This document shows, piece after piece, positions 31,210 through 49,606 of a stretch of DNA of 64,000 nucleotides; position 1 is the stretch's first letter; the number at the start of each line of letters is the position of its first letter. The notes under the pieces were generated by a model, which did not search any database, had not been told where the DNA came from, and saw only the letters and a list, made by a program, of their open reading frames with translations. Source of the DNA: Cupriavidus basilensis (lineage in GTDB: Bacteria; Pseudomonadota; Gammaproteobacteria; Burkholderiales; Burkholderiaceae); assembly GCF_008801925.2 (NCBI RefSeq), contig NZ_CP062804.1, forward strand, positions 1,116,001-1,180,000, read 5' to 3'. A program made the translations under genes and the position numbers.

Positions 31210-31268
31210 ACTGCGCCGGGGCCGGCTGCGGCCTGCCGATCCCCCTAACCCAATTGCCGCCAATCACA

Positions 31269-31955
31269 ATGGAAAGCGTCGTCACCGAGATTTTCTTCCG
31301 CCTTTCCACGGCGTTCTTCTGGCCGGTCGCGCTGGCGTTGCTGGTGCTGTTCGTGCTCTCGCTGGCCGATCTCGGCGGCCTGATCGTGCAGTCCCGGCGC
31401 CGCGCCGTGGCGCCGCGCAGCGATCTCCCCGCGCTGGCCAACGCGCTGGCCTCCAGCCTGCAAAATGGCACGCGGGCGCATCTGGACGCGGCATTGCTGT
31501 CGCCTTCGCTAGCCCGCTTCTGGGGCATGCTGGAAGAACGGCTCGCCCGGCTCGATTCGCACGAACACCTTGACCTGTGGCTGGACGAAACGCTGCAGCG
31601 CGAGGAAATGCGCGTGGCCAACCGGCTCGACCTGACCCGCACGCTGGTGCGCATCGCGCCGATGCTGGGCCTGGCCGGCACCATCATCCCGCTCGGGCCG
31701 GCGCTGCAATCGCTGCTCGGCGGCGACATGGCCGGCATGGTCAACCACCTGGTGATCGGCTTTGGCGCGGTCGTCTGCGGGCTGGTGCTGGGCGGCATTG
31801 CCTACGTGCTGACGCTCACGCGCGAGCGCTGGGCGCGCAGCGATCTCAAGGAAATGGAAAACCTGTGCGAGCTGGTGCTGCGGGCCATGCCCGAACCGGT
31901 GGCGCCCGCGGCACACGCGCGCGCCGCCATCCATCTGGCCGGGACCCAGGCCTGA
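31269..31955 (+). CDS. MotA/TolQ/ExbB-type proton channel protein
   Basis: This 228-residue inner-membrane protein has three helices in the ExbB pattern: one near the N-terminus (PVALALLVLFVLSLADLGGL) and two after a cytoplasmic loop (LVRIAPMLGLAGTIIPLGPA and LVIGFGAVVCGLVLGGIAYV). The APMLGLAGTIIPLG segment is the conserved TolQ/ExbB core. The stop overlaps the start of the DUF2149 gene by one base, so they are coupled. In the family, ExbB-type pentamers with an ExbD-type dimer convert proton-motive force into work on a periplasmic partner. Here the next gene but one encodes an exported CobN-like protein, the likely partner. Confidence 0.93.
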   Translation: MESVVTEIFFRLSTAFFWPVALALLVLFVLSLADLGGLIVQSRRRAVAPRSDLPALANALASSLQNGTRAHLDAALLSPSLARFWGMLEERLARLDSHEHLDLWLDETLQREEMRVANRLDLTRTLVRIAPMLGLAGTIIPLGPALQSLLGGDMAGMVNHLVIGFGAVVCGLVLGGIAYVLTLTRERWARSDLKEMENLCELVLRAMPEPVAPAAHARAAIHLAGTQA

Positions 31956-32371
31956 TGGACGCGGGCCAGGGACACCAGTTCAGGCGGCGGCGCTTTGTGC
32001 GGCGGCGACGCGCGCAGGGCGAGCTTGCCTCGGTGCATCGGGAAGACCCGCTGGCCGGCGTGGCCAACCTGTTCGATGCCTCCATCGTCTTTGCCGTGGG
32101 CCTGATGGTGGCGCTCACGCAAGCGTTCAGCCTGACCCAGCTGCTCAATCCCGACTCGCAGTTCACCCTGGTCCAGCGCGATCCGCGCACCGGCGAGCTG
32201 CAATGGCTGGAGAAGAACCGCAAGGAGGTCAAGGTCAGCAAGATGTCCCCGCAGCAGAAAACGGGCGAGGGCACCCGGCTGGGCGTGGCTTACCAGTTGC
32301 CGGATGGCAGCGTGGTGTATGTGCCGGAAGGCGCGGCGGCCAGCGCGGCCTCGGCCCCGGGCGCGCGTTGA
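31955..32371 (+). CDS. DUF2149 protein, ExbD-like in layout
   Basis: This 138-residue protein has an Arg-rich cytoplasmic N-terminus (FRRRRFVRRRR), then a conserved DPLAGVANLFDASIVFAVGL segment running into one membrane helix, then a short periplasmic domain and an Ala-rich end. One helix with a small periplasmic domain is the ExbD/TolR/MotB plan. Both junctions overlap by one base (TGATG), giving a tight ExbB-DUF2149-CobN unit. DUF2149 proteins are known next to CobN-like and ExbB-like genes in several phyla, including haem-use loci of the Bacteroidetes (stated from memory). Confidence 0.88.
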   Translation: MDAGQGHQFRRRRFVRRRRAQGELASVHREDPLAGVANLFDASIVFAVGLMVALTQAFSLTQLLNPDSQFTLVQRDPRTGELQWLEKNRKEVKVSKMSPQQKTGEGTRLGVAYQLPDGSVVYVPEGAAASAASAPGAR

Positions 32372-35300
32372 TGGCTTCGGCGCGGCGGGTTTCGCTGTGG
32401 CGGCGCTGGCTGCTGCTGATGCTTGGGCTGCTGTGCGGGTGCCTTGCCGGCCCTGGCCACGCCCGCGCAGCTCAGCCCGGACAGTCAGCCCCGGTACGCG
32501 TGCTGCTGGTCACCACCAACACGCACCTGCTGCCCGCGGCCGAAGCGCGCCTGCGCGAGCAGGCCGGGCCGGGCAGGGTGGTGCTGGACGCCGTGACGGC
32601 AGCGCCCGATGCCGCGCAGGTCGCCGCCGCCGATGTCATCTACGCGTATTTCGTTCCCACGGCCGTGCTGCGCCAGATGGCGCCGGCCGTGCGCCAGGCG
32701 CGGCAGCGCGGCGCGCTGGTGCTGGCCGCGCCGGCAGCGTCCGCCGAGGCCGCCTGGGGCTTTGGCCTGGACGCCGCGCGCAACCAGGCTGCCGAGGCTT
32801 ACTGGAGCGCCGGCGGCGCCGACAACCTCGCGGGCTGGATGGCCTGGCTGGTGGCCGCCGTGCGCGGCGAGCAGGTCATCGCCGTGCCGCCGCCGCGCCC
32901 GCTGCCTGCGGCCGGCATCTATCACCCGCGCGCAGCGCAAGCATTTGCCACGCTCAAGGACTATCTCGGCTGGTACCGCGCCGGTGCAAGCGGCCTGCCG
33001 GCTGGCGCACCGCTGGTCGGCATTGCCTTCTATGCGAGCAACTATCGCCAGCAGGATCTCGCGCATATCGATGCGCTGATCGCCGCGCTGGAGCGCCAGG
33101 GCATCGGCGCGGTGCCGGTGTTCGGCTGGCCGCTGTCCGGCCTGGATCCGATGCTCACGGTCGACGGCCAAAGCCCGCTGCGCGCATTGCTGGCGCTGAA
33201 CCTCACCATCAGCCGCGCCGAGGACAAGGCCTGGCTGGAGCGCCACGGCCTGCATGCCATCAACCTGATCGCCACGCGCGACAGCCAGGCCGGCTGGCGG
33301 GCCGATGCGCGCGGCATTGGCGGCGAGCGCCTGCCGCTGCTGCTTAACACGCCCGAGCGGGCCGGCGCCTCGGAGCCGATCCTGTTCGCCACGCTGGAGG
33401 ACGAACACGGCGCCAAGGCCAGCCATGCCGTGCCGGAGCGGGCAGACGCGGCGGTGGCCCGCGTGCGGCGCTGGATCGCGCTGCAGGACAAGCCCGCGGC
33501 GGACAAGCGCATCGCTATCCTTTACTACAACAACCCGCCGGGCCGCGGCAATATCGGCGCCAGCTACCTGGCCACGCTGCCCTCGCTGGTGCAGGTCATG
33601 GCGCGGCTGCGCGAGGCGGGCTACCGCACGGGCGCCACGCTGCCGGACACGGCCGAGCTGACGGCGCTGCTGGAGCGCAATGGCCGCAATATGGAGGAAT
33701 GGTCGCCCGGCGAACTGGCCGAGATGGTGTCGCGCGGCCGCGTTACGCTGCTGCCGATGGCGCAGTACAAGCGCTGGTTCGATGCCTTGCCGGCGGCGTT
33801 TCGCCAGTCGGTGGTGGCCGCCTGGGGCCCGCCCGAGCGCAATCCGCTGATGCTGGTGGGTGACGGCCATGGCGGGCAGGATTTCGTGATTCCGGGCCTG
33901 CGCTTCGGCAATCTGTTCGTTGGCCCGCAGCCGCTGCGCTCCACCTTCGCGCGAGCAATGGACAGCTCGCACGATACGGTGACGCCGCCACCGCACTCCT
34001 ATATCGCCGCCTACCTGTGGTATCGCCACGCCTTCGGCGCGGACGCGATGGTCCACGTGGGCCGCCACGGCACGCTCGAATGGCTGCCAGGCAAGCAGGT
34101 AGGGCAAAGCGGCGACGACAGCGCCGAGGTGTTGCTGGGCGACCTGCCCAACGCCTACTACTACATCCAGGACGGCGGCGGCGAAGCCATCCAGGCCAAG
34201 CGCCGCAGCGCCGCCGTGCTGGTCAGCCACCTCACCCCACTGATCGCCCGTGCCGGCTGGCCGGACAAACTGGCCAAGCTCGACGCGGTGATCGAGCAGC
34301 AGGAGGCCGCCGCTGACAGCTCCCCCGCGCTGGCGGACCAGTACCGCCTGCAGGCGCTGGCTCAGATCCGCGCCCTCGGGCTGGACGGCCAGCTTGGGCT
34401 GGATCCCGGCGCGCCATGGGAGCAGGTCGAGCCGGTGATCCACCGCTTCTTGCATAAGGTGGAAGCCGAGCCGGTGCCGCTGGGCATTCACACGCTGGGC
34501 GAGTTGCCGCCGTTGGATGCGCAGCGCCAGGCGCTGGCCACCGTGCTGGAAAGCGCGTTCGACGCGAGCGAGGCGCGGGTGCTCGGCAAGGACACGCTCG
34601 CGCGCTGGGCCGGCGCTTTGGCGGAAGGCCGCGAGCCGGACGGCGCTGCCAGCGCGCCCTTGCCGCCGCCGCTGGCGGACAAGGTAAAAACCGCGCTGTC
34701 CAGCGCGCGCGCCTGGCTGGCCAATCTGCGCGAATCGCCGCGCCGCGAGCTCGATGGCCTGGTGACCGTGCTGTCCGGCCGCTACCTGCCGACCGCGCCG
34801 CTGGGCGACCCCGTGCGCACCCCGCAGGGCCTGCCCACCGGGCGCAACCTGCACGCCTTCGACGGTGCGCTGATCCCCACGCCTGCGGCCTGGCAGCTCG
34901 GCAAGCAACTGGCCGCGCAGACGCTCGCGCGCTATCGCGAGGAAACCGGCAAGGCGCCCGAGCAGGTCTCGATGGTGCTGTGGTACGGCGAGACCGAGCG
35001 CCACCAAGGCGCGATGGAGAGCGAGGCGCTCTACCTGATGGGCGTGGAGCCGGTCTGGAACGCGCGCGGCGTGGTGGAGGATGTGCGCCTGATCCCCGAT
35101 GCCGAACTCGGCCGCCCGCGCGTCAATGTGCTGTTCACCATTTCCGGCATCTACCGCGACGGCTTCGGCGACAAGGTGGCGCTGCTGGACAAGGCCGCGC
35201 GCCTGGCCGCCGAAGCCGGCGACAACGCCATCAGCCGCCACGACCACGAAGCGCAGGCCACGCTGCTGGCAGCCGGCGTGGAGCCGCAACTGGCCGCGCG

Positions 35301-36489
35301 CCTGGCCCGCGCCCGCGTGTTCGCTGCCAAGCCCGGCAACTACAGCATCGGCGTGCAGCAGATGGTGGAGCAGAGCAAGGACGCGGCGCAGGCCGGCGAG
35401 CCGCCGGGCGCGCTGGCGCGGCAGTACCTGCGCTACATGAACTTTGCGTACTCAAGCGAAGGCTGGGGCGAGACCGCGCCGCAGGCGCTGGCCAGCCACC
35501 TCAAATCCAACCAGGCCGTGCTGTTCTCGCGCGCCAGCACGCTTTATGGTGCGCTCGACAACGACGATACCTACCAGTACGCCGGCGGCCTCAACATGGC
35601 CACGCGCGCCGTCAGCGGGCAGGCGCCGCGCTTCTGGCTGCACAACCTGCGCCGCGCCGGCGAAGAGCAGACCGTGGATGCCCGTACCTGGCTGGCCACC
35701 GAGCTCAACGCGCGCAACTGGAACCCGCGCTGGATCGAAGGCATGCAGCGCTCGGGCTATGCCGGCGCGCGCGAAATGTTCAAGGAGATCGAGCATCTCT
35801 ACGGCTTCCAGGCCACCAGCCCGGAGCAGATGAGCGGCAGCTTCTGGCAGAACACCTATGACGTCTATGTGGCCGACAAGAATGGCCTGGGCATGGACGC
35901 TTTCTTTGCGCAAAACAACCCGCACGCGCGGCAGGGCATCCTGGCCCGGCTGCTGGAAGTGGACCGGCAGGGGAGCTACCGCTTCACGCCTGCCGAGCGC
36001 GCCGATATGGCACGACGCTATGTGGCGTCGGTCAATCGCGACGGCTTGTCCTGCTCGGCCAATAGCTGCGGCAATCCCGTGCTGATGCAGTACATCGCCG
36101 GGCTGGGGCAGCAAGCCCGGCTGCCCACGGATGCGCTGCGCGAATTCTCCGCGCGGCTGGCGACAGCCATGCCGGGGCGCGAGCCAGCCGCGCCGGCCGC
36201 GGCGTCTGGCCGGGCTGCACCGCCCGACGCATCCCGTGCGAGTCCGCCGCCGGCCCGGCAGGCCAGGCCGCAGCCAGCACCGGCGGCGCCACCGCATCCC
36301 GCGACCGGCCAAGTGACAGGCCAGTTGCTCGAAAGCCGCGTGCTCAAGCTCGCGGCGCCCGTCCCGCTTAGTGGCCCGGCGCCGCGCGAGGCGCTGTGGA
36401 CCGCTGCGCTGATGCTGCTGCTGGTTGGCGCTGGCGCCTTTGCGGAGTGGTGGCGCGGCCGTGGCCGGCGGCAGCCCGCGCCACGCTGA
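32371..36489 (+). CDS. Exported, membrane-anchored CobN-like metallochelatase (HmuS-like arrangement)
   Basis: This 1372-residue protein has the CobN/BchH large-subunit fold but differs from cytoplasmic CobN. The N-terminus is a signal peptide (RRWLLLMLGLLCGCLAGPGH, cleavage near ARAAQ). The CobN core includes ILYYNNPPGRGNIGASYLAT, VGRHGTLEWLPGKQ and GLPTGRNLHAFD. A Pro/Ala-rich linker at about residues 1265-1330 leads to one membrane helix (LWTAALMLLLVGAGAFAEWW) with a basic tail, so the main domain should face the periplasm. With ExbB and DUF2149 partners this matches the HmuS-type dechelatase arrangement of haem-use loci. Metal removal from or insertion into an imported tetrapyrrole is inferred. 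Confidence 0.88.
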   Translation: MASARRVSLWRRWLLLMLGLLCGCLAGPGHARAAQPGQSAPVRVLLVTTNTHLLPAAEARLREQAGPGRVVLDAVTAAPDAAQVAAADVIYAYFVPTAVLRQMAPAVRQARQRGALVLAAPAASAEAAWGFGLDAARNQAAEAYWSAGGADNLAGWMAWLVAAVRGEQVIAVPPPRPLPAAGIYHPRAAQAFATLKDYLGWYRAGASGLPAGAPLVGIAFYASNYRQQDLAHIDALIAALERQGIGAVPVFGWPLSGLDPMLTVDGQSPLRALLALNLTISRAEDKAWLERHGLHAINLIATRDSQAGWRADARGIGGERLPLLLNTPERAGASEPILFATLEDEHGAKASHAVPERADAAVARVRRWIALQDKPAADKRIAILYYNNPPGRGNIGASYLATLPSLVQVMARLREAGYRTGATLPDTAELTALLERNGRNMEEWSPGELAEMVSRGRVTLLPMAQYKRWFDALPAAFRQSVVAAWGPPERNPLMLVGDGHGGQDFVIPGLRFGNLFVGPQPLRSTFARAMDSSHDTVTPPPHSYIAAYLWYRHAFGADAMVHVGRHGTLEWLPGKQVGQSGDDSAEVLLGDLPNAYYYIQDGGGEAIQAKRRSAAVLVSHLTPLIARAGWPDKLAKLDAVIEQQEAAADSSPALADQYRLQALAQIRALGLDGQLGLDPGAPWEQVEPVIHRFLHKVEAEPVPLGIHTLGELPPLDAQRQALATVLESAFDASEARVLGKDTLARWAGALAEGREPDGAASAPLPPPLADKVKTALSSARAWLANLRESPRRELDGLVTVLSGRYLPTAPLGDPVRTPQGLPTGRNLHAFDGALIPTPAAWQLGKQLAAQTLARYREETGKAPEQVSMVLWYGETERHQGAMESEALYLMGVEPVWNARGVVEDVRLIPDAELGRPRVNVLFTISGIYRDGFGDKVALLDKAARLAAEAGDNAISRHDHEAQATLLAAGVEPQLAARLARARVFAAKPGNYSIGVQQMVEQSKDAAQAGEPPGALARQYLRYMNFAYSSEGWGETAPQALASHLKSNQAVLFSRASTLYGALDNDDTYQYAGGLNMATRAVSGQAPRFWLHNLRRAGEEQTVDARTWLATELNARNWNPRWIEGMQRSGYAGAREMFKEIEHLYGFQATSPEQMSGSFWQNTYDVYVADKNGLGMDAFFAQNNPHARQGILARLLEVDRQGSYRFTPAERADMARRYVASVNRDGLSCSANSCGNPVLMQYIAGLGQQARLPTDALREFSARLATAMPGREPAAPAAASGRAAPPDASRASPPPARQARPQPAPAAPPHPATGQVTGQLLESRVLKLAAPVPLSGPAPREALWTAALMLLLVGAGAFAEWWRGRGRRQPAPR

Positions 36490-36704: not shown

Positions 36705-37787
36705 ATGCAGACCCGTAAAATCCCCGCCACCATCGTCACCGGCTTCCTTGGCAGCGGCAAGACCACCTTGCTGCGCCATATCCTCGAGAACGCCAACGGA
36801 CGGCGCATTGCGGTCATCGTCAACGAGTTCGGCGAGCTGGGCATCGATGGCGAGATCCTGAAGGGCTGCGGCATCGGCTGCGACGAATCCGGCCAGAGCA
36901 ATGGCCAGCTCTATGAGCTCGCCAACGGCTGCCTGTGCTGCACGGTGCAGGAGGAATTCTTCCCGGTGATGGAGCAATTGCTGGAGCGCCGCGGCGATAT
37001 CGACCACGTGCTGATCGAGACCTCCGGCCTGGCGCTGCCCAAGCCGCTGGTGCAGGCCTTCAACTGGCCCAGCATCAAGAACGCCTTCACCGTGGATGCG
37101 GTCGTCACCGTGGTGGACGGCGCGGCAGCCGCGGCCGGCCAGTTCGCCGCCGACCCGGACGCCGTGGACGCGCAGCGCAAGGCCGATCCCAACCTCGATC
37201 ACGAGTCCCCGCTGCATGCGCTGTTCGAAGACCAGCTCGGCGCGGCCGATCTCGTCATCCTCAACAAGACCGACCTGATCGACGACGCGCAGCGCGCCGA
37301 CGTGGAAGCGCTGATCCGCCCCGAGATCCCCGCCGAAGTGAAGATCGTCGGCGCGCAGGGCGGCAAGCTGGATATCGCGTTGCTGCTGGGCCTGAACCGC
37401 GCATCGGAAGACACCATTCACCTGCGCCCGGATCACCACGGCTCCGCGGACGATCCCGATCACGCAGACCACCATCACGACGAGTTCGACTCCGTCGTCG
37501 TAGAGCTGGGCGAGGTGGACCGCGACCCGTTGATCGATGGCTTGCGCCAGCTGGTGGAAAGCCACACCATCTACCGCATCAAGGGCTTTGCCAAGCTGCC
37601 CGCCAAGCCCATGCGGCTGGTGCTGCATGGCGTGGGACGGCGCTTTGACAGCTACTTCGACCGCCGCTGGCTGCCGGGCGAGGCGCAATCCACGCGTATC
37701 GTGCTGATCGGCCAGGCGCTTGACCAGCCCACGCTGCAGGCTGCCCTGGAGGCCGCGCTGAGCGCCGCCGCCGTGCGTACCGCGTAA
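36705..37787 (+). CDS. cobW: CobW/COG0523 family GTP-binding metal chaperone
   Basis: This 360-residue cytoplasmic GTPase has Walker A GFLGSGKTTLL (residues 13-23), the conserved metal-binding motif GCLCC near residue 76 (CxCC), IETSGLALP as the switch segment and NKTDLI for guanine recognition. A His-rich loop (DHHGSADDPDHADHHHDEF) precedes the C-terminal CobW domain and could bind Co2+ or Zn2+. Its position directly before cobN supports a role in delivering cobalt to the chelatase and argues against a Zn-stress paralogue. It is the first gene of the cytoplasmic cobaltochelatase set. Confidence 0.93.
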   Translation: MQTRKIPATIVTGFLGSGKTTLLRHILENANGRRIAVIVNEFGELGIDGEILKGCGIGCDESGQSNGQLYELANGCLCCTVQEEFFPVMEQLLERRGDIDHVLIETSGLALPKPLVQAFNWPSIKNAFTVDAVVTVVDGAAAAAGQFAADPDAVDAQRKADPNLDHESPLHALFEDQLGAADLVILNKTDLIDDAQRADVEALIRPEIPAEVKIVGAQGGKLDIALLLGLNRASEDTIHLRPDHHGSADDPDHADHHHDEFDSVVVELGEVDRDPLIDGLRQLVESHTIYRIKGFAKLPAKPMRLVLHGVGRRFDSYFDRRWLPGEAQSTRIVLIGQALDQPTLQAALEAALSAAAVRTA

Positions 37788-37859: not shown

Positions 37860-40800
37860 ATGCACCTGCTTTCCACCCGTCCGGGCGGCTTCGTCGACGA
37901 TAACGCCGGCGTGGTGCGCATTGCACAAAGCCCGGCGCAAATCGTGGTGCTCAGCGCGGCGGATACCACGCTGTCGCTGCTGGCCGGCGTCTTCCCGCGC
38001 CTGGGAGCGGGTTTTCCCACGGTGCGGCTGGCCAACCAGATGTACCTGCGCCAGCCGGCTTCGCTCGACATGTATGTGGACGACGTGCTGCAGCACGCGC
38101 GCGTGGTGGTGGTCGACCATCTTGGCGGCGACAGCGACTGGCCCTATGGCCTGGAGCGGCTGACCGAGCTGGCGCGCTCGCGCAACCAGCTGCTGGTGAT
38201 GTTCTCCGGCGACCTGGCCGAGGACGCCAACCTGCTCGGGCGCGGCAACGCGCCGCAAGCGCTGGCCAGCAACCTGTGGCGTTACCTGCGCGAGGGCGGC
38301 GCGGACAACGCCGAGCAGTTCTTCCGCTGCCTGGCGCATCACGCTTTCGGCTGGGGCGAGCCTGCCCTGCAGCCGCGCGTGCTGCCGCAGGCGGCGATCT
38401 ATCACCCGGCACACGGCGTGGCCACCGCGGCGGACTGGCAGCGGGCGTGGGCGCAGGATGGCCATGCCGATGCGCCGGTCGTGGCGCTGGTGTTCTACCG
38501 CGCCCACCTGCAGGCTGGCAACACTGCTGTGTTCGATGCCCTCATCGCCGCCTTGCGCGCACAGGGCATGAACCCGCTGCCGCTGGCGGTCAATTCACTC
38601 AAGGACACGCTGTGCCGCGAGGTGCTGCAGCATCTGTGCGCCGGGCACGGCGCGGCGCTGGTGCTGAACACCACGGCGTTCGCCGTCTCGTCGCTGGACG
38701 CGCCTGAAACCCTGGCGCTCGCCGGCGACGCGCCGGTGCTGCAGGTGATCCTGAGCGGCGGCAACCGCGAGGACTGGCTGCAGGACAGCCAGGGCCTGGG
38801 CCCACGCGACGTGGCCATGCATATCGCCATGCCCGAGGTGGACGGGCGCATCATCACGCGCGCCGTCAGCTTCAAGGGGCTGGCCTATCGCTGCCCCCAT
38901 ACCGAGGTCGATGTGGTGCGTTACCAGCCCGACGCGCAGCGCATCGCCTTCGTGGCCGAGCTCAGCCGCCGCTGGTGCCGCCTGCGGCAGCTGGACAATG
39001 CCGACAAGCGCGTGGCGCTGGTGCTGGCCAACTATCCGGCCAACGAAGGGCGCATCGGCAACGGCGTGGGGCTGGATACGCCGGCCTCCGTCGTGGGCAT
39101 TCTCGGCATGCTGCGCGAGCAGGGCTACCACTGCGAAGGCCTGCCTGCGGACGGCGACGACCTGATGCGCGGGCTCACGCAGGGCATCACCAACGACCCG
39201 ACGCACCGCGACCTGCGCCCGGCATTCCAGAGCCTGTCGATGGCCGACTACCTGGCGCACCTGAGCCGCCTGCCGGCGGACAACCAGCGCGCCCTTGCCG
39301 AGCGCTGGGGCAGCCCGGACCAGGACCCGATGGTGCGGCAAGGGCGCTTCATGATTGCCGGCGTGCGCAGCGGGCATCTGTTCGTCGGGCTGCAGCCTGC
39401 CCGGACGTACGCGCTGCCGGGCGAGCAAGGCAGCCAGAGCTACGCCAGCTACCACGATGCCGATCTGGTGCCGCCGCATGGCTACCTGGCGTTCTACTTC
39501 TGGCTGCGCCACAGCTTCGGCGCCGACGCCATCGTCCACGTGGGCAAGCACGGCAACCTGGAGTGGTTGCCCGGCAAGAGCGTGGCGCTGGCCGATACCT
39601 GTTGGCCCGATGCCATCCTCGGGCCGCTGCCGCATCTCTATCCCTTTATCGTCAATGACCCGGGCGAGGGCGCGCAGGCCAAGCGGCGCGCGCAGGCCGT
39701 CATCATCGACCACCTGATGCCGCCGCTCACGCGCGCCGAGAGTTATGGCCCGCTGCAGGACCTGGAGCGGCAGGTTGACGAATACTACGAGGCGCTGGCG
39801 GTGGACCCGCGCCGCGCGCGGATGCTGCGCAAGGCGATCCTGAAGCTGATCGTGGACCAGCAGCTGCATCGCGAGCTGGGGCTGGATGCGCCGGCGGATA
39901 GCGATGGAGAAGATGCGCTGCTCAACCGCACCGACGCTTACCTGTGCGAGCTGAAGGAATCCCAGATCCGCGATGGCCTGCATGTGTTCGGCGTGTCGCC
40001 GCAGGGCCGCCAGCGGCGCGATACGCTGCTCGCGCTCGGGCGCTTTCCGGTGGGCGACGGCAAGGGCGCGCAAGCCAGCTTGCTGGCGGCGCTGGCCGCC
40101 GACCTGGCATTGGGCGATGGCTTCGACCCGCTCGATGCCGACTGGTCCGCGCCCTGGCAAGGGCCGCGTCCGGCGCAACTGGCCACGCTGGACGCCGGGC
40201 CGTGGCGCCATCATGGCGATACGCGCGAGCGCCTTGAGATGCTGGCCACCGCGTTGCTCGGCGAGGCGGCTGGCGACGTTGCCTTGCCGCGGGCCTCGGC
40301 CGTGCTCGCGCGCCTGCGCCAGGACGTGATGCCGCGCCTGGATGCCTGCGGCCCGCAGGAAATGCGGCAACTGTCGCGCGGGCTGGCCGGGCAGTTCGTG
40401 CCGCCGGGCCCCAGCGGCGCGCCCTCGCGCGGCCGGCCGGATGTCCTTCCCACGGGGCGCAATTTCTACTCGGTCGACACGCGTGCGGTGCCAACCCGCA
40501 CGGCATGGACGCTGGGCCTGAAGTCTGCCAACCAGTTGATCGAGCGCCACCTGCAGGAGCACGGCGAGTATCCGCAATCCATTGGCCTGTCCGTCTGGGG
40601 TACCGCCACCATGCGCAGCGGCGGCGACGACATCGCGCAGGCCTTCGCGCTGCTGGGCGTGCGGCCCAAGTGGGCAGCCGGCAGCTACCGCGTGACCGAC
40701 TTCGAGATCTTGCCGATGGCGATCTTCGACCGTCCGCGCGTCGACGTCACGCTGCGCGTGTCGGGGTTCTTCCGCGATGCCTTCGCCAACGTCATGCGCC

Positions 40801-41690
40801 TGTTCGATGCCGCCGTGCAGGCCGTGGCGCAGCTTGACGAACCCGCCGACGTCAATCCCGTGCGCGCCCGCATCGAGGGCGAGCGCGCGCGGCTGGAAGC
40901 CGAGGGCGTGCCCGCTCCCGAGGCGCGCCGCCGTGCCGGCTGGCGCGTGTTCGGCGCCCGCCCGGGCGGCTACGGCACCGGCCTGCAGGACCTGGTCGAT
41001 AGCCGCAACTGGCAGGACGACAGCGATCTGGCGCGGGCCTACCTGCATGCCGGCGGCTACGCCTATGGGCAAGGCACGGATGGCGTCGAGGCGCGCGCCA
41101 GCTTTGCCCAGCGCCTGTCCAGCCTGGATGCGGTCGTGCAGAACCAGGACAACCGCGAGCACGACCTGCTCGACGCCAACGACTACTACCAGTTCCAGGG
41201 CGGCATGGTGGCGGCCGCGCGCGAGTTCGGCGGCGCGCAGCCAGCGATCTACCACGGCGACCACAGCAACCCGGCGGCGCCGCGCATCCGCACGCTGCAG
41301 GAAGAAATCAGCCGCGTGATCCGTGCGCGCGTGGTCAATCCCAAGTGGCTCGACGGCGTCAAGCGGCACGGCTACAAAGGTGCGTTCGAGATGGCCGCCA
41401 CGGTGGACTACCTGTTCGGCTTCGATGCCACCACCCGCGTGGTGGCCGATCACCAGTACGCGCTGGTGACCGATGCCTATGTGAACGACGCCGGCACCCG
41501 CGCTTTCCTGCGCCAGCACAATCCGCGCGCGCTGCACGCCATCTGCGAGCGCCTGCTCGAAGCGGCGCAGCGCGGCCTGTGGCAGGAGCCGGGCGAGCGT
41601 CGCGCCCAACTGGAACAGCACCTGCTCGACAGCGAGCAGGCGCTTGAAGGAATCGAAGGAATCAAAGGAATCGAAGGAATCCCCTCATGA
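37860..41690 (+). CDS. cobN: Cobaltochelatase large subunit CobN
   Basis: This 1276-residue cytoplasmic protein inserts Co2+ into hydrogenobyrinic acid a,c-diamide in aerobic cobalamin synthesis, with an AAA+ motor. VALVLANYPANEGRIGNG, VGKHGNLEWLPGK, NDPGEGAQAKRRAQAVIIDH and LPTGRNFYSVDTRAVPT are standard CobN motifs. It has no signal peptide or membrane helix, unlike the CobN-like protein upstream. The C-terminus ends in a low-complexity GIEGIKGIEGIPS tail encoded by 9-bp repeats. Its stop overlaps the ATPase start by 4 nt (ATGA), so the motor is translationally coupled. It follows cobW by 72 nt. Confidence 0.95.
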   Translation: MHLLSTRPGGFVDDNAGVVRIAQSPAQIVVLSAADTTLSLLAGVFPRLGAGFPTVRLANQMYLRQPASLDMYVDDVLQHARVVVVDHLGGDSDWPYGLERLTELARSRNQLLVMFSGDLAEDANLLGRGNAPQALASNLWRYLREGGADNAEQFFRCLAHHAFGWGEPALQPRVLPQAAIYHPAHGVATAADWQRAWAQDGHADAPVVALVFYRAHLQAGNTAVFDALIAALRAQGMNPLPLAVNSLKDTLCREVLQHLCAGHGAALVLNTTAFAVSSLDAPETLALAGDAPVLQVILSGGNREDWLQDSQGLGPRDVAMHIAMPEVDGRIITRAVSFKGLAYRCPHTEVDVVRYQPDAQRIAFVAELSRRWCRLRQLDNADKRVALVLANYPANEGRIGNGVGLDTPASVVGILGMLREQGYHCEGLPADGDDLMRGLTQGITNDPTHRDLRPAFQSLSMADYLAHLSRLPADNQRALAERWGSPDQDPMVRQGRFMIAGVRSGHLFVGLQPARTYALPGEQGSQSYASYHDADLVPPHGYLAFYFWLRHSFGADAIVHVGKHGNLEWLPGKSVALADTCWPDAILGPLPHLYPFIVNDPGEGAQAKRRAQAVIIDHLMPPLTRAESYGPLQDLERQVDEYYEALAVDPRRARMLRKAILKLIVDQQLHRELGLDAPADSDGEDALLNRTDAYLCELKESQIRDGLHVFGVSPQGRQRRDTLLALGRFPVGDGKGAQASLLAALAADLALGDGFDPLDADWSAPWQGPRPAQLATLDAGPWRHHGDTRERLEMLATALLGEAAGDVALPRASAVLARLRQDVMPRLDACGPQEMRQLSRGLAGQFVPPGPSGAPSRGRPDVLPTGRNFYSVDTRAVPTRTAWTLGLKSANQLIERHLQEHGEYPQSIGLSVWGTATMRSGGDDIAQAFALLGVRPKWAAGSYRVTDFEILPMAIFDRPRVDVTLRVSGFFRDAFANVMRLFDAAVQAVAQLDEPADVNPVRARIEGERARLEAEGVPAPEARRRAGWRVFGARPGGYGTGLQDLVDSRNWQDDSDLARAYLHAGGYAYGQGTDGVEARASFAQRLSSLDAVVQNQDNREHDLLDANDYYQFQGGMVAAAREFGGAQPAIYHGDHSNPAAPRIRTLQEEISRVIRARVVNPKWLDGVKRHGYKGAFEMAATVDYLFGFDATTRVVADHQYALVTDAYVNDAGTRAFLRQHNPRALHAICERLLEAAQRGLWQEPGERRAQLEQHLLDSEQALEGIEGIKGIEGIPS
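41649..41684 (+). repeat. 9-bp tandem repeat at the cobN 3' end
   Basis: GGAATCGAA, GGAATCAAA, GGAATCGAA and GGAATCCCC follow one another and encode the Gly-Ile-Glu/Lys tail of CobN. The unit is a multiple of three, so copy changes keep the frame. The purine-rich AAGGAATC units also supply ribosome-binding potential (AAGGA) for the overlapping ATPase start at 41687, so copy number could affect coupling. Confidence 0.8.
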
Positions 41691-42751
41691 ATGCAACCGC
41701 CCGGCCCGCCCGCATGCCATTTCCCTTCAGTGCCCTGGTCGGCCAGCAGCGCCTGCAGCAAGCGCTGCTGCTCGCCGCGGTGGACCCCGGCATCGGCGGC
41801 GTGCTGGTCAGCGGCCCGCGCGGCACGGCCAAGTCGACCGCGGCGCGAGCCCTGGCGGAATTGCTGCCCGAAGGCCAGTTCGTCACGCTGCCGCTTGGTG
41901 CCAGCGAGGAACAACTGATCGGCACGCTCGACCTCGGCCACGTACTGAAGCAGAGCGAGGTCCGCTTTGCCCCCGGCCTGCTGGCGCGCGCGCACCAGGG
42001 CGTGCTGTATGTGGACGAAGTCAACCTGCTGCCGGATCACCTCGTCGACCAGTTGCTGGACGTGGCCGCCAGCGGCGTCAACGTGGTGGAGCGCGACGGC
42101 GTGTCGCACCAGCACGAGGCGCGCTTTGTGCTGGTGGGCACCATGAACCCGGAAGAAGGCGAGTTGCGCCCGCAGCTGCTGGACCGTTTCGGCCTGTCGC
42201 TGGCGCTGGAGAACTGCACGGACGCCGCGCAGCGCCAGGCGATCGTCAAGGCCCGGCTCGCGTTCGACAACGATCCGGTGGCCTTGTGCGCGCGCTTTGC
42301 CACGGAACAGGAAACGCTCACGCGGCAGGTGCGGCTGGCGCGCGCCGCACTGTCTGCGCTTGCGTTCAGCGATGCCGTGCACGAGCGTGTCAGCCACCTG
42401 TGCCTGGCCGCCGCCGTCGATGGCGTGCGAGCCGACCTGGTGATGCTGCGCGCGGCGCGCGCGCTGGCTGCCTTGCAGTGCGACGCGGCGGTGGTGCCCG
42501 CGCATGTGGACACCGTGGCGGAACTGGTCTTGCACCACCGGCGCCAGGCGCCGCACAACGCCGGCAGGCAGGCCGGTGGCGATGGCAGCGCAAATGGCAG
42601 CGCGAATAGCAGCGGCGATGGCAATGGCCGCAATGCGGGCGACGCCGCCGCCAACAACCCATGGGGGGCGCTCCCGCCTGCGCCGGCAAGCGCAGCGGCC
42701 GGCATTGCCCCGGTCAAGGGTGTGAGGCCGCTGCCCACAAAAAAAGCCTGA
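41687..42751 (+). CDS. chlI: ChlI-type AAA+ ATPase of cobaltochelatase (short, zero-frame product)
   Basis: This 354-residue AAA+ protein is the motor for CobN. Walker A is GPRGTAKST (residues 43-51), the ChlI insert FVTLPLGASEEQLIGTLD follows, Walker B is GVLYVDEVNLLP, and TMNPEEGELRPQLLDRFGL is the sensor and Arg-finger segment. The last 60 residues are a Gly/Asn/Ser/Ala linker like that between ATPase and VWA domains in ChlD. Just before its stop lies an A7 run (42739-42745) that can shift ribosomes into the -1 frame, fusing it to the VWA domain. The short form would be ChlI/CobS-like, the long form ChlD-like. Confidence 0.93.
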   Translation: MNATARPARMPFPFSALVGQQRLQQALLLAAVDPGIGGVLVSGPRGTAKSTAARALAELLPEGQFVTLPLGASEEQLIGTLDLGHVLKQSEVRFAPGLLARAHQGVLYVDEVNLLPDHLVDQLLDVAASGVNVVERDGVSHQHEARFVLVGTMNPEEGELRPQLLDRFGLSLALENCTDAAQRQAIVKARLAFDNDPVALCARFATEQETLTRQVRLARAALSALAFSDAVHERVSHLCLAAAVDGVRADLVMLRAARALAALQCDAAVVPAHVDTVAELVLHHRRQAPHNAGRQAGGDGSANGSANSSGDGNGRNAGDAAANNPWGALPPAPASAAAGIAPVKGVRPLPTKKA

Positions 42752-42798
42752 GCCACCGGCAGGCCGCCACCGATTCCAGGCAAGGCGGCAACCGGTGG
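42739..42798 (+). promoter_or_regulatory. Programmed -1 ribosomal frameshift site (chlI/chlD)
   Basis: In the ATPase frame the heptamer reads A AAA AAA (42739-42745) and the stop TGA follows one codon later (42749-42751). After a 7-nt spacer, CCACCGG (42753-42759) pairs perfectly with CCGGTGG (42792-42798), and GCCGCC (42763-42768) with GGCGGC (42784-42789) inside it. A GTGAGG element lies 11 nt upstream of the A-run, as in dnaX-type stimulators. A -1 slip continues as KK-SLSHRQ into the VWA frame and yields a 579-residue ATPase-linker-VWA protein. Programmed frameshifting has been described for chlD genes elsewhere (from memory). Confidence 0.85.
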
Positions 42799-43425
42799 CA
42801 AGCCCCTCGTTTTGCCTCATTTCTCGCCGCGCCGCCCGGCAGCCCGGGCAGCTCGCGCATCCACTGGACACGGACGCTGGCCGCCAAGGGCAGCCAGCCG
42901 CTTGCGCCCAGCCAGCTGCGCTGGCGCGCACAGCAGGCGCACGCCGGCGTGCTGCACTGCTTCGTGCTCGATTGCTCGGCCTCGATGCTGCACGGCCGCC
43001 AGCTCGCGCTGGCCAAGGGCGTGCTGCTGCGCCTGCTGCAACGCGCCTACCAGGCGCGCGCCGAGGTGGCGCTGGTGTGCTTCGCCGCCGGCCGCGCCGA
43101 AGTCCGCCTGCAGCCGGCACGCGCCCGCCCATGGAGCGAAGCCTGGATCCGCCCGATCGCCGGCGGCGGCGGCACGCCGCTCGCGCTCGGCATGGAGCGC
43201 GCCGGCCAGTTGCTGGCCCACGCCGCGCGACGGCACCCGGCGCAACAGCGCTGGCTGTGGCTGCTCAGCGACGGCCGCAGCACCGAGCAGCCGCCGCGCC
43301 CGCATTGGGCCGATGCGGTGATGGTGGTGGATTTCGAGCGCCAGGCGGTGGCGCTGGGGCGCTGCCGGCAGCTGGCGCTGGGATGGGAGGGGGAATATCT
43401 GGTGGCGGATGCGTTGATCGGATGA
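42745..43425 (+). CDS. chlD: VWA-domain part of the frameshifted ChlD-like cobaltochelatase subunit
   Basis: This -1-frame segment adds about 226 residues to the ATPase. The MIDAS metal site is visible as LDCSASM, the distant Thr in GGGGTPLALG and the Asp in LLSDGRS, as in the ChlD/CobT integrin-I domain that docks the motor on the large subunit. The frame contains an ATG at 42661, 91 nt inside the ATPase gene, but it has no ribosome site and its first about 28 residues would be meaningless, so independent initiation is unlikely. No ATG or GTG lies between the shift site and the domain. This argues strongly for frameshift expression. Confidence 0.85.
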   Translation, partial: SLSHRQAATDSRQGGNRWQAPRFASFLAAPPGSPGSSRIHWTRTLAAKGSQPLAPSQLRWRAQQAHAGVLHCFVLDCSASMLHGRQLALAKGVLLRLLQRAYQARAEVALVCFAAGRAEVRLQPARARPWSEAWIRPIAGGGGTPLALGMERAGQLLAHAARRHPAQQRWLWLLSDGRSTEQPPRPHWADAVMVVDFERQAVALGRCRQLALGWEGEYLVADALIG

Positions 43426-43458: not shown

Positions 43459-43559
43459 GTAGGATGCCATTTCCTCCGCCGGATCATGCGCGTGAAAGCG
43501 AAACATACACTCGGCGGCCTGGATGGCGGCCTCGGGCATTGGCGTCAGGCTTGTCATTC

Positions 43560-43576
43560 GTATAGTTAGGCTATAC
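43560..43576. promoter_or_regulatory. Candidate HigA operator over the higBA promoter
   Basis: GTATAG (43560-43565) and CTATAC (43571-43576) form a perfect inverted repeat over a plausible -10 (TATAGT, 43561-43566) that has TTGGCG 16 nt upstream. HigA-type antitoxins typically repress their own promoter through such palindromes. The toxin ATG follows 19 bp later. Confidence 0.6.
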
Positions 43577-43594
43577 ACTCCGTGTGATTCCGCA

Positions 43595-43873
43595 ATGATC
43601 AAAAGCTTCGCTCACTCTGGCCTGCAGCGATTCTTCGAGACCGGATCGAAAGCCGGGATTCAGCCTCGGCATGCCGAGAAACTTCGGATACAGCTTGGTG
43701 CTTTAGACCACGCCATCAAGCCGGAGGACATGGGCGTGCCCGGCTGGAGATTGCACGAACTCAAAGGCCGCATGGCCGGACACTGGTCAATCACCGTCAA
43801 TGGGAATTGGCGCATAACCTTCAGATTCGAGGATGGCGATGCGCTGGTTGTGGACTACCGCGACTACCACTGA
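43595..43873 (+). CDS. higB: HigB-type toxin (RelE superfamily)
   Basis: This 92-residue protein is a ribosome-dependent mRNA interferase of HigB type. IKSFAHSGLQRFFETGSKAGI at the start and LHELKGRMAGHWSITVNGNWRITF at residues about 51-74 are the family signatures, and the C-terminal DYRDYH has the usual terminal His. Toxin precedes antitoxin, the normal higBA order. No ribosome site is visible, which may keep toxin levels low. The ATG at 43595 gives the standard N-terminus; the frame opens earlier without similarity. Confidence 0.93.
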   Translation: MIKSFAHSGLQRFFETGSKAGIQPRHAEKLRIQLGALDHAIKPEDMGVPGWRLHELKGRMAGHWSITVNGNWRITFRFEDGDALVVDYRDYH

Positions 43874-43906
43874 CCCCCAACGTACTGTGACATCAAGGAG
43901 CCCATC

Positions 43907-44224
43907 ATGACTCGGATGCACAAGCCTCCGCATCCCGGCACGGTTCTCGCTGAATGGCTGGCGGGCCTCGACGACATGACGATCACGGCGTTCGCCGGGC
44001 ACATCGAAGTGACGCGCGCCACGCTCTCGCGTATCGTGAACGGCCATGCGGCAATTACGCCCGATATTGCCATTCGCCTGGAAGAAGCGTTGGGTGCCAG
44101 CCGCGAGATGTGGTGCGGTATGCAGACCGCCTACGACCTCTGGATGGCCGCGCAGAAACCCCGCAAACACATCAAGCCGATTGTTCGTCCGATCATGGAC
44201 GAAGCGGAGCCGTCCTGCGCATAG
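43907..44224 (+). CDS. higA: HigA-type antitoxin (XRE helix-turn-helix)
   Basis: This 105-residue protein opens with HKPPHPGTVLAEWLAGL, the usual HigA start, followed by a helix-turn-helix (TITAFAGHIEVTRATLSRIV) and the conserved ITPDIAIRLEEALG. It should neutralise HigB and repress the operon. AAGGAG lies 7 nt upstream, a much better ribosome site than that of the toxin, so antitoxin should be made in excess. The C-terminus is Lys/Arg- and Pro-containing and probably flexible. Confidence 0.95.
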   Translation: MTRMHKPPHPGTVLAEWLAGLDDMTITAFAGHIEVTRATLSRIVNGHAAITPDIAIRLEEALGASREMWCGMQTAYDLWMAAQKPRKHIKPIVRPIMDEAEPSCA

Positions 44225-46975: not shown

Positions 46976-49240
46976 CTAGAAGTAGAAGTTGGCCGACAGC
47001 TCGGCCGCGCGCGGCCGGCCCAGCAGCCACTGGCCGCCGCTGTTGCCGGCGGACTCGGCGTAGTCTCGGTTGAACAGGTTGTACACGCGCAGCGTCAGCG
47101 CCGTCTTGCGCGATGCGCGCCATTGCAGCGAGGCATCCACCACCGTGTACGACGGCATGGCGGTGGTATTGGCGTTGTTGGTGTAGCGCTTGCCCACGTA
47201 GCGCAGGCCGCCGCCTGCCTGCCACTGCGGTGCGAAGGCCCATGTCAGCCACAGGTTGGCCGCCTGCTGCGCAACGCTGGTGGGCACGTTGCCATTGCGC
47301 GAGACCAGCGCGCCGTTCACGCTTTCCGCGAAGTTGTCGTAGCGGGCGCGCAGCACGGTGCCGTTGGCATCCAGGCGCAACCCGTGCATGAGTGCCACGC
47401 TGACCGATGCCTCCAGCCCGCGCGAGGATTGCTCGCCCACCTGTACCGACAACGCCGGGTTGCTGGCGTCGCGTGTCAGCAGGTTCTTCTTGACGATCTG
47501 GTAGGCGGCAAAGGTCCACTCGCCGCGCTGGTTCCAGAACGATTGCTTGACCCCGGCTTCGATCTGCCTGCCGGTGGCCAGCTTGAAATCCTTCTGTGCG
47601 TCCGAGGTGGAGATCAGTGCGCCAAGGGGATCGGTGGCGGTGGCGTACTGCGCATACACCGACAAGGCTGGCGTGAATGCGTAGACCGTGCCCGCGCGCC
47701 ACGTGATGTTGTTGAAACTGCGGGTCCAGTCGTCGCCCGTGACCAGGTTGCCGCGTTCCAGCTGCGCATGGTCCAGCCGCACGCCGCCAATCACCGACCA
47801 TTGCCGGGTCAGCTGCAGGCGGTCCTCGCCAAACAGTGCGGCTTGCGTGGTGTGGGTGCGAAAACGCGGCGACGTGACAATGCCCGGCGGGCTGAAGAAC
47901 TGGCCCGGGTCGAACTGGTAGGCATTGACCGTGGACGCGCCGCCATAGGGCGAGTTGTTGCTGTGAGTGAAGTTGATGCGGTTGACGTCGAACCCCACCA
48001 TGGCGGTATTGGCCATGCCGAACAGCTGGCCATCGATCATCAGGTCGGCGCGGTCGCCCACCTGTTCCTGGTCGTGCAGGATCTCCAGGTAGTCGGTGCG
48101 GCGTACCTGGCCCGTCGCGGGCAGCAAGGTATAGGACTCGGCGTCGCGCCAGTGGCGCTGGCTGGTGAGGTAGTAGAACTGGTTGCGCACCGTGACGCGC
48201 TCGTTGGGCTGCCACTGCGCCGCGAGCCGGGTCCAGCGGTCGCGATAGGTGATGTCGGCGTCGCCAACGTTGTAGTTCTTCTTGCGCAGCGAGGTGTCCA
48301 GGCTGCCGGCCGCCAGCGGCGTGCCCAGGTATTGCATCGGATGCTGGTCGGCGTCGTCATAGGACAGCGTCAGGTTGAACTCGGGCGATACGTCCAGCCG
48401 CACCGCGGCCGACACCGCTAGGCTGCGCGAGTCGCCCCGGTCCACCCAGCCGCCGGAGCGGCCGTAGCTGGCGTTGAGGCGGTAGGAGAGGGTCTCGTTG
48501 ACCGCGCCGCCGCTGTCGAACGCCGCGCGCGCTGTTTTCTGCGTGCCGCCGGTGAGCTGCAGCTCGTTGGCGATCGGCGCGGGCATCGGCTTCTTGGGAA
48601 TCACGTTGACCACGCCGCCGATCGCGCCCTCGCCAACCATGACCGAGGCCGCGCCGCGCAGCACCTCGATGCGGTCCACGGACCAGGTATCGAAGGGAAA
48701 TGTGACAGTGCCGGAGGCCACGTAGAGGCGCGTGCCATCGTACAGCTGCATCACCGAGCCTTGTCCCGCAAAGCCGCGTGCCGCGAGCGCCGTGCCGCCG
48801 TTGCCGGGCGCGCCATTGGAAGTGATGCCGGTGGCGCGGGTCACGGCCTCGCGCACCGACAAATCGCCGCGTTCGCGAATGGTGTCGCCGGACAGGACTT
48901 CCACGCTGGCAGGCGTTTCCAGCGGGGTCAGGCCAAGGCGGCTGCCGGTGCTGGTGGGCTCGGACAGCGCCAGCCCGGGCGGCTGCGAGGCGCTGCTGAC
49001 GACCACCGGCGGTAGCACCGTGCTGTCGCCGCGCGACCGCTGCGATTGCGCTCGCTCTGAAGGTTGGGCATCTTCCGCCGCCCAGGCGGCATCGGCGCCG
49101 ATGCCGGCGAAGGCCCCCAGCGACAGCGCGAGCGCGCAATGCTGCGCGAGCTGGCGTGGCGGCTTGGGCGCATGACGACGTTGGGGTGGCTTGGCGGCCG
49201 CCGGCGAGGCGGTATGGGCAATGCGAGGGCGCGCGGACAT
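46976..49240 (-). CDS. TonB-dependent outer-membrane receptor, cobalamin-riboswitch controlled
   Basis: This 754-residue receptor has a long signal peptide ending near DAAWAAED. The plug domain is at residues about 75-190 (TPLETPASVEVLSGDTIRER, then RIEVLRGAASVMVGEGAIGG), and a 22-strand barrel ends in LSANFYF with terminal Phe. Its sequence class is the siderophore-receptor type, not classical BtuB, yet a cobalamin riboswitch precedes it, so the ligand is probably cobalt-, corrinoid- or tetrapyrrole-related. The ATG at 49240 is chosen because it starts the signal peptide; the frame stays open into the riboswitch. It heads an operon with PepSY and NiCoT genes. Confidence 0.93.
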   Translation of the reverse strand: MSARPRIAHTASPAAAKPPQRRHAPKPPRQLAQHCALALSLGAFAGIGADAAWAAEDAQPSERAQSQRSRGDSTVLPPVVVSSASQPPGLALSEPTSTGSRLGLTPLETPASVEVLSGDTIRERGDLSVREAVTRATGITSNGAPGNGGTALAARGFAGQGSVMQLYDGTRLYVASGTVTFPFDTWSVDRIEVLRGAASVMVGEGAIGGVVNVIPKKPMPAPIANELQLTGGTQKTARAAFDSGGAVNETLSYRLNASYGRSGGWVDRGDSRSLAVSAAVRLDVSPEFNLTLSYDDADQHPMQYLGTPLAAGSLDTSLRKKNYNVGDADITYRDRWTRLAAQWQPNERVTVRNQFYYLTSQRHWRDAESYTLLPATGQVRRTDYLEILHDQEQVGDRADLMIDGQLFGMANTAMVGFDVNRINFTHSNNSPYGGASTVNAYQFDPGQFFSPPGIVTSPRFRTHTTQAALFGEDRLQLTRQWSVIGGVRLDHAQLERGNLVTGDDWTRSFNNITWRAGTVYAFTPALSVYAQYATATDPLGALISTSDAQKDFKLATGRQIEAGVKQSFWNQRGEWTFAAYQIVKKNLLTRDASNPALSVQVGEQSSRGLEASVSVALMHGLRLDANGTVLRARYDNFAESVNGALVSRNGNVPTSVAQQAANLWLTWAFAPQWQAGGGLRYVGKRYTNNANTTAMPSYTVVDASLQWRASRKTALTLRVYNLFNRDYAESAGNSGGQWLLGRPRAAELSANFYF

Positions 49241-49317
49241 GCGTTTTCCATCATTGGCCGCGGGCGACCCCGCCCGGCGGCAATAAACGAACCAGCCGCG
49301 GACGCGCGCGCAGTGAC

Positions 49318-49352
49318 GGCCAGGCGCGTGGCCAGCCGTCTCACGCCTGGCC
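49318..49352 (-). promoter_or_regulatory. Hairpin of the riboswitch expression platform
   Basis: GGCCAGGCG (49318-49326) pairs perfectly with CGCCTGGCC (49344-49352). It lies between the B12 box and the receptor start. There is no U-run, so control by translation or Rho-dependent termination is more likely than intrinsic termination. Confidence 0.5.
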
Positions 49353-49432
49353 GCCCGTCCGCAGCCCCGGTGATCGGTCGAAGGCCGGTATCCGGGCTTG
49401 CAGGGGGACGCCTGCCGCTGGGGCGCGTCCGG

Positions 49433-49606
49433 GGTGCCGCCTTCCCGCGCGATGATGCGCAGTGGCTGCCGCGGCCTGTTGGCGCGGCGTGACACCTTTG
49501 TACCTGCTGACCGTTGCGGGGGCAGCACAGGATTAGCCGTGGCATGGCCGGCGGCGCACCTGTTTCCCGTTTAACCCCCGCCGCGTGCTGCGCGCCGGAG
49601 GCACCT
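49433..49606 (-). promoter_or_regulatory. Cobalamin riboswitch
   Basis: On the minus strand the conserved elements appear in order. AGGTGCC (49606-49600) forms P1 with GGCACC (49438-49433). TTAAACGGGAAAC (49574-49562) and CTGCCCCCGCAACGGT (49525-49510) are core blocks, and the B12 box runs from GCCACTG to GCGGGAAGG (49466-49440). All match the adenosylcobalamin-type aptamer. It should repress the receptor-PepSY-NiCoT operon when cobalamin is plentiful. Confidence 0.95.

Follow-up and report, generated by a model that had tools for sequence, protein, structure and literature searches.

A conserved −1 frameshift signal predicted to yield ChlI-like and ChlD-like chelatase subunits from one gene in Cupriavidus basilensis

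How might both motor subunits of a class I chelatase come from one gene? The question is raised by a locus of Cupriavidus basilensis in a stretch of 64,000 nucleotides (contig NZ_CP062804.1, positions 1,116,001 to 1,180,000; hereafter the window), where the coding regions for a ChlI-like AAA+ module and a von Willebrand factor type A (VWA) domain are adjacent, in the 0 and −1 frames, respectively. The CobNST and ChlIDH enzymes, as described in PMC7689651, likewise combine a large subunit with AAA+ and VWA motor subunits, and I- and D-type chains occur together in structure entry 2x31. Separate genes encode CobS and CobT, and the same usually holds for ChlI and ChlD, whereas here one gene covers both. 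A first-pass annotation, made from the DNA alone, had proposed that this gene gives rise to a ChlI-like protein of 354 residues and a ChlD-like protein of 579 residues by −1 frameshifting. The coordinates and logic of that proposal hold, and 96 of the 98 loci compared here conserve the signal. Programmed −1 ribosomal frameshifting on a single mRNA is very probably (probability about 0.93) the source of the two proteins.

Results

Gene layout and slip site

The zero frame opens with the ATG at 41687 and encodes the ChlI-like AAA+ subunit (41687..42751, + strand; 354 aa; Pfam Mg_chelatase, AAA_5, and AAA_lid_2). Its final codons, CCC ACA AAA AAA GCC TGA, contain a slippery heptamer, A_AAA_AAA (A7; 42739..42745, +), and the TGA stop (42749..42751, +) lies one codon 3′ of it; the phase of the heptamer is as first annotated, and the stop is one codon later than the position "right after" the run given there. 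The −1 frame (42745..43425, +) encodes the linker and VWA domain of the predicted ChlD-like product (Pfam VWA_2/VWA), including the sequence DCSAS from 42970, which we take to be a MIDAS-like motif. By arithmetic, a shifted product would have 353 + 226 = 579 residues, 226 of them after the shift, with the junction K352-K353-S354. A single NCBIfam model, TIGR02442 ("putative cobaltochelatase"; length 641), spans both frames, frame 0 matching its first half (best stretch 88–316) and frame −1 its last part (457–638). The ChlI part matched the solved BchI/ChlI chains 1g8p, 6l8d, and 8osf (E 1.3e-74 or better), and the VWA part matched the BchD chain 2x31_A (E 6.9e-14). The gene product also matched TIGR02030 and TIGR02031, and no match to the CobS/CobT models TIGR01650 and TIGR01651 was obtained at E 0.001. 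No separate chlI gene was found in the genome, where the next best match covered 126 residues at E 1.4e-7 (the genome does contain a CobS-like gene).

The GC content of the window is 67%, and its + strand holds just two runs of at least seven A in 64 kb. Lysine codons nearby are mostly AAG (AAA/AAG: 2/14 in cobN, 1/11 in cobW, and 0/4 in the ChlI part). Given this composition, the scarcity of A runs, and the lysine codon usage, the A7 in this context is hardly due to chance. An Rfam search gave no match at the frameshift signal itself.

Conservation of the slip site

The signal was compared in 98 distinct loci, comprising the best 80 of at least 580 confirmed relatives plus 20 loci from the genus, minus two duplicates (L088 of L007 and L096 of L008); the peptide patterns used in the scan for relatives do not cover the A-run. 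A slip site in phase, together with a VWA match in the −1 frame, was present in 96 of the 98. The heptamer is A_AAA_AAA in 51 of these, from Cupriavidus, Burkholderia, Paraburkholderia, Caballeronia, Trinickia, Pandoraea, Variovorax, Rhodoferax, and others, and A_AAA_AAG (A6G) in 45, mostly from Pseudomonas. The zero-frame stop lies one codon past the run in 94 of the 96, and directly after it in L075. An order-wide sample of 399 genomes was also searched; 61 matched, and loci from the 30 best-matching genomes were examined. The nine most similar loci (seven of them new, these with at least 59% identity) all frameshift at A7, and none of the 21 other examined loci shows a frameshift, with L134 running off its contig.

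The first-pass annotation had looked to the A-run and stem as features that relatives should share, and both proved conserved, with A7 or A6G in 96 of 98 loci and an outer stem that covaries. It had also named an uninterrupted frame and an independent VWA start as grounds for doubt; neither was borne out among close relatives, and uninterrupted frames occurred only in a distant Psychromonas-type group and six more distant homologues.

Downstream stem and upstream element

Six nucleotides (GCCTGA) separate A7 from a predicted two-part stem. The outer part, defined by folding and covariation, has 8 bp (5′ arm 42752..42759, 3′ arm 42792..42799, both +), and the inner part, predicted by folding only, has 6 bp (5′ arm 42763..42768, 3′ arm 42784..42789, both +). 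The inner stem agrees with the first-pass annotation, which had given the spacer as 7 nt and the outer part as 7 bp. The fold has an energy of −32.5 kcal/mol (z −3.52), and 1 of 200 shuffles was at least as stable. Across the 51 A7 loci, 96.7% of cells in the outer eight pairs were paired versus 88.2% in column shuffles, two-sided changes were seen in 4 pairs (47 cells), and the covariation score was 0.294 compared with 0.117 in shuffles, with 0 of 500 shuffles reaching 0.294; these statistics cover the outer stem, and the shuffles ignore kinship among loci. Slid versions of the stem were at most 51.6% paired in the same loci. With G-U allowed, the two arms of a locus paired at 8 of 8 positions in 40 of the 51 loci and at 7 of 8 in the remaining 11, and in controls 8 of 8 was reached by 394 of 2020 cross-pairs, which combine loci with different arms, and by 134 of 10200 shuffles. 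Examples of such arm pairs are GCCACCGG/CCGGTGGC, GCCATCGA/TCGATGGC, and GCCTCCGG/CCGGAGGC. For the 11-bp stem of the 45 A6G loci (43 distinct), pairing was 92.3%, and 4 pairs showed two-sided changes. As judged by comparing sequences, an RNA stem 3′ of the slip site is under selection.

A Shine–Dalgarno (SD)-like sequence, GTGAGG (42722..42727, +), lies 11 nt before the A-run and is a possible stimulator. The motif itself is not kept in every clade. Pairing with the anti-SD sequence upstream of the run averaged −4.7 kcal/mol versus −2.6 kcal/mol at random places in the same genes, and duplexes of −5 kcal/mol or better were found at 44% of sites upstream of the run versus 17% of control places, in a comparison of related, non-independent loci. 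Stimulation of the frameshift by an SD-like element is possible and only modestly supported.

The CobN partner and selection on the gene

Directly upstream is cobN, encoding the large subunit (37860..41690, +; TIGR02257 1604 bits vs. a cut-off of 822). The TGA of cobN and the start codon of the frameshift gene share bases as ATGA, which bears out the position originally given for CobN. Within the CobN C-terminal end (41647–41686), a GGAATC(A/G)AA repeat creates several AAGGA motifs right before the next start codon. Of 60 genus genomes, 21 have a CobN match over the cut-off, and 20 of these 21 also have the frameshift gene, which was not found in any of the other 39. The one genome with CobN and without the frameshift gene (G005) is a 730-contig draft in which the CobN match stops at 984 of 1226.

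The dN/dS ratio between the window copy and 17 genus copies, a set that leaves out L007/L088 and L102, was 0.18–0.29 for the ChlI part and 0.13–0.63 for the VWA part; the highest VWA value is against the closest relative, for which dS is just 0.058. The gene is under purifying selection.

Alternative explanations for the frame break

Both products would also be obtained if RNA polymerase slipped on A7 and the mRNAs with an extra A encoded the fused protein, and the seven-A homopolymer that this needs is present. We consider such transcript slippage highly unlikely. Just A6 followed by G is found in 45 of the 96 loci; this sequence is a poor substrate for transcript slippage and a classic ribosomal slip site. 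The phase A_AAA_AAR is also kept, with a covarying stem a few nucleotides downstream. Alternatively, the VWA part could be a separate gene, with ribosomes either initiating at a start codon of its own or re-initiating at the TGA. An in-frame ATG does occur 26 codons before the run, at 42661, and is the only −1-frame start candidate of the window copy; among the 96 loci, 66 carry at least one ATG, GTG, or TTG in this frame, and in 24 loci the anti-SD duplex of such a start reaches −5 kcal/mol or better. The window ATG lacks an SD sequence, however (duplex +1.9 kcal/mol), 30 of the 96 loci lack all three of these codons in the −1 frame between the last upstream stop and 40 codons past the run, the better-scoring starts are scattered in position, and an A-run in phase would have no role; a separate gene is scarcely credible. 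The first-pass statement that the −1 frame has no credible start is accurate in that sense, although an ATG does exist. Homopolymers are error-prone, and L102 shows an irregularity of this kind, so the break could in principle be a sequencing error or a recent mutation in a gene that is really in one frame or broken. Recurrence of the break and its phase in 95 other loci, spanning several genera as well as several sequencing projects, and in 7 more reduces the probability of this to a practically negligible level.

Several observations weigh against programmed frameshifting at this gene or against its generality. L042, a metagenome-assembled genome (MAG), has an early in-frame TAG before the run. 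The two exceptions among the 98 loci are L102, a copy from the genus in which the run is A6 and a second indel lies upstream, and L059 (Psychromonas), with a single uninterrupted frame; L059 and 12 relatives (L147–L158) encode the fused protein in one frame, as do six distant homologues in the order-wide sample. In C. basilensis OR16 (L007) the signal is kept and the VWA part is lost after ~55 codons to a PrlF/YhaV toxin–antitoxin pair. The extra pair types of the A6G stem are no better than in shuffles (213/500), and constraint on the VWA part is weaker than on the ChlI part. Finally, a CobS/CobT-like pair elsewhere in the genome (G000:C2:769238-770898; L166 7230-9928) could supply motor subunits; it scored 527 bits for TIGR01650, below the cut-off of 558.55, and 169 bits for CobT_C. 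The idea that motor subunits in this genome could come from the frameshift gene alone was dropped because of this pair. The pair occurs in 31 of the 39 genus genomes without CobN and in 8 of the 21 with CobN; it thus does not track CobN.

The single-frame group of L059 and the six distant homologues indicate that the wider family can do without frameshifting. In the L059 genome there was no separate ChlI match (E 1e-15) and no CobS match. A test set of 13 single-frame loci was assembled (L146, which equals L059, and its 12 relatives; matches in 16 of 60 genomes). Eight of these 13 loci encode a lysine pair near aa 433–448, at the start of the VWA domain, by an A6 or A7 run, in the phase T_AAA_AAA or C_AAA_AAA and not A_AAA_AAR. 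A reverse exit like that of dnaX was considered for this group, at the A7 that L059 has at aa 394, and rejected, as that run is not common to the 13 loci. In one matched genome (L159/L162) there are two frames, separated by an A8 run.

Programmed ribosomal frameshifting remains our preferred explanation because the slip site, phase, stop, and stem are conserved and because homologues gave positive reporter tests: in PMC3711429, three cassettes in E. coli shifted at 63, 40, and 10% for 11, 9, and 7 A's. We infer a frameshift rate, subunit assembly, and operation in this organism along the following lines. Ribosomes staying in the zero frame at A_AAA_AAA would stop one codon on, releasing a complete ChlI-like AAA+ subunit. 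In some ribosomes, delayed by the stem-loop that begins 6 nt farther on, both lysine tRNAs would slip back one base, and these ribosomes would read the −1 frame to give a ChlD-like subunit with the same AAA+ module plus the VWA domain. The two products would assemble into a mixed AAA+ motor driving the CobN encoded just upstream, at a ChlI:ChlD ratio set by the frameshift rate.

The corrin pathway and the likely substrate

"Cobaltochelatase" is a family label for this gene and needs care because the genome has too few corrin methyltransferases for the usual substrate. The host genome contains three TP_methylase (PF00590) genes. One encodes uroporphyrinogen-III methyltransferase (SUMT) and adjoins a gene for a small CbiX/CfbA-like chelatase, another encodes the 16S rRNA methyltransferase RsmI, and the third encodes a lone CbiE-type methyltransferase (G000:C2:1522253-1522849; L165 7110-7943). 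No corrin methyltransferase beyond this CbiE was found in the genome-wide PF00590 search; CobG, CobH, and others were not searched for. De novo corrin synthesis requires several further methyltransferases: CobI, CobJ, CobM, and CobF. The search should detect genes of this kind since CobI and CobJ in L010, a Caballeronia locus in which the frameshift gene lies beside CobG, CobH, CobI, and CobJ, score 153 and 108 bits, respectively, for PF00590, and the weakest listed host match scores 80 bits. PF00590 genes, counted across 60 genus genomes and identified in the host genome only, number 1–5 per genome and 2–4 in the 20 with the frameshift gene; the genome with one is 54% complete. Three such genes seem too few to build a corrin ring, and the host therefore appears to be without de novo synthesis.

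The chelatase appears to be kept under selection without the pathway for which it is named. One reading, which bears on function and does not conflict with the frameshift, is that CobN and the frameshift-made ChlI/ChlD have no role in de novo B12 synthesis and put cobalt into salvaged metal-free corrinoids or act on another tetrapyrrole. We lean slightly toward it. The methyltransferase counts in the host and the 20 genus genomes, the persistent purifying selection, and a setting near a NiCoT transporter gene, a TonB receptor gene, and a cobalamin riboswitch, in place of the corrin genes of L010, all point this way. Against it, the genome-wide evidence comes from a single family, PF00590, and the C. 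metallidurans CH34 genome paper (PMC2864759) concludes from cbiX that a Cupriavidus carries out anaerobic cobalamin synthesis, which differs from the reading made here. The same source describes an operon for converting cobyrinic acid to adenosylcobalamin, plus corrinoid uptake. On the broader statement, that 20 of the 60 genus genomes have a working CobN-ChlI-ChlD system, with the signal intact in nearly all copies, selected without de novo corrin synthesis and serving salvage of metal-free corrinoids or a novel cobalt-tetrapyrrole, we regard the balance as even.

Surroundings of the gene

Other genes near it in the window encode a NiCoT transporter, a PepSY protein, and a TonB receptor. The riboswitch (RF00174; 49366–49623, − strand; 74.8 bits) heads the TonB receptor ORF (46976–49528), whose best family is siderophore-type and not the B12 receptor model. 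A HigB/HigA toxin–antitoxin pair (43523–44224) lies between the frameshift gene and the NiCoT gene, and in L007 PrlF/YhaV lies at the corresponding junction, replacing most of the VWA part. Upstream of cobN is cobW, encoding a cobalt metallochaperone GTPase (36705..37787, +; TIGR02475 502 bits vs. a cut-off of 332), preceded by a gene for a second CobN-like large subunit with an uncertain start codon (32203..36489, +; PF02514 940 bits). ExbB-like, DUF2149, and CobN-like proteins are encoded consecutively at 31254–36489. The genome has three CobN homologues, the third adjoining a heme-type TonB receptor. A match to the Burkholderia sRNA Bcj14 (RF02836; 120 bits) was found at 16498–16670 on the − strand.

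Discussion

The principle invoked in the first-pass annotation is established for chlD genes (PMC3711429 and PMC9227772). In 2013, Antonov et al. predicted frameshifting in a "magnesium chelatase" cluster of 23 genes from six genera, including Burkholderia, Pseudomonas, and Delftia (PMC3711429). A 2016 review (PMC5009743) covers chlD-type frameshifting, a further paper (PMC8211752) mentions it in these genes for archaea, and Kuznetsov et al. tied frameshifted chlD to cobaltochelatase evolution in 2022 (PMC9227772). Like the gene described here, the frameshifted chlD (fs-chlD) genes have a −1 shift at an A-rich slip site between ChlI-like and VWA parts, a downstream structure, and both subunits produced from one gene for use with cobN. 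Neither PMC9227772 nor PMC3711429 names Cupriavidus in its main text. A literature search combining Cupriavidus, frameshifting, and chelatase found no paper, and no title listed in other searches concerned this gene in Cupriavidus. We claim no first report because the gene could be listed in a 2020 paper by Antonov in Mol Biol Evol or in its database; that paper is reported to treat fs-chlD and cobaltochelatase evolution.

The arrangement also resembles dnaX of E. coli, which has a downstream stem, an upstream SD-like element, and two AAA+ subunits with a common N-terminal module. The dnaX slip site is A_AAA_AAG, as in the A6G loci. The shifted product of dnaX is the short one, whereas here it is the long one.

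With the mechanism already known for the gene family, the less expected part is the functional question posed by a host that seems to have no corrin synthesis. Unlike the fs-chlD systems, this host appears to lack the corrin pathway yet keeps CobN, a combination absent from the eight stages of Table 1 in PMC9227772. A related question, the role of ChlI/ChlD in species with neither the pathway nor the large subunit, was raised in the same paper. The locus offers a clean, conserved case in which one gene would provide both AAA+ subunits of a class I chelatase, and their ratio could be studied by altering one RNA signal. If the host is truly without corrin synthesis, it would be a system for finding a role of the chelatase outside the B12 pathway.

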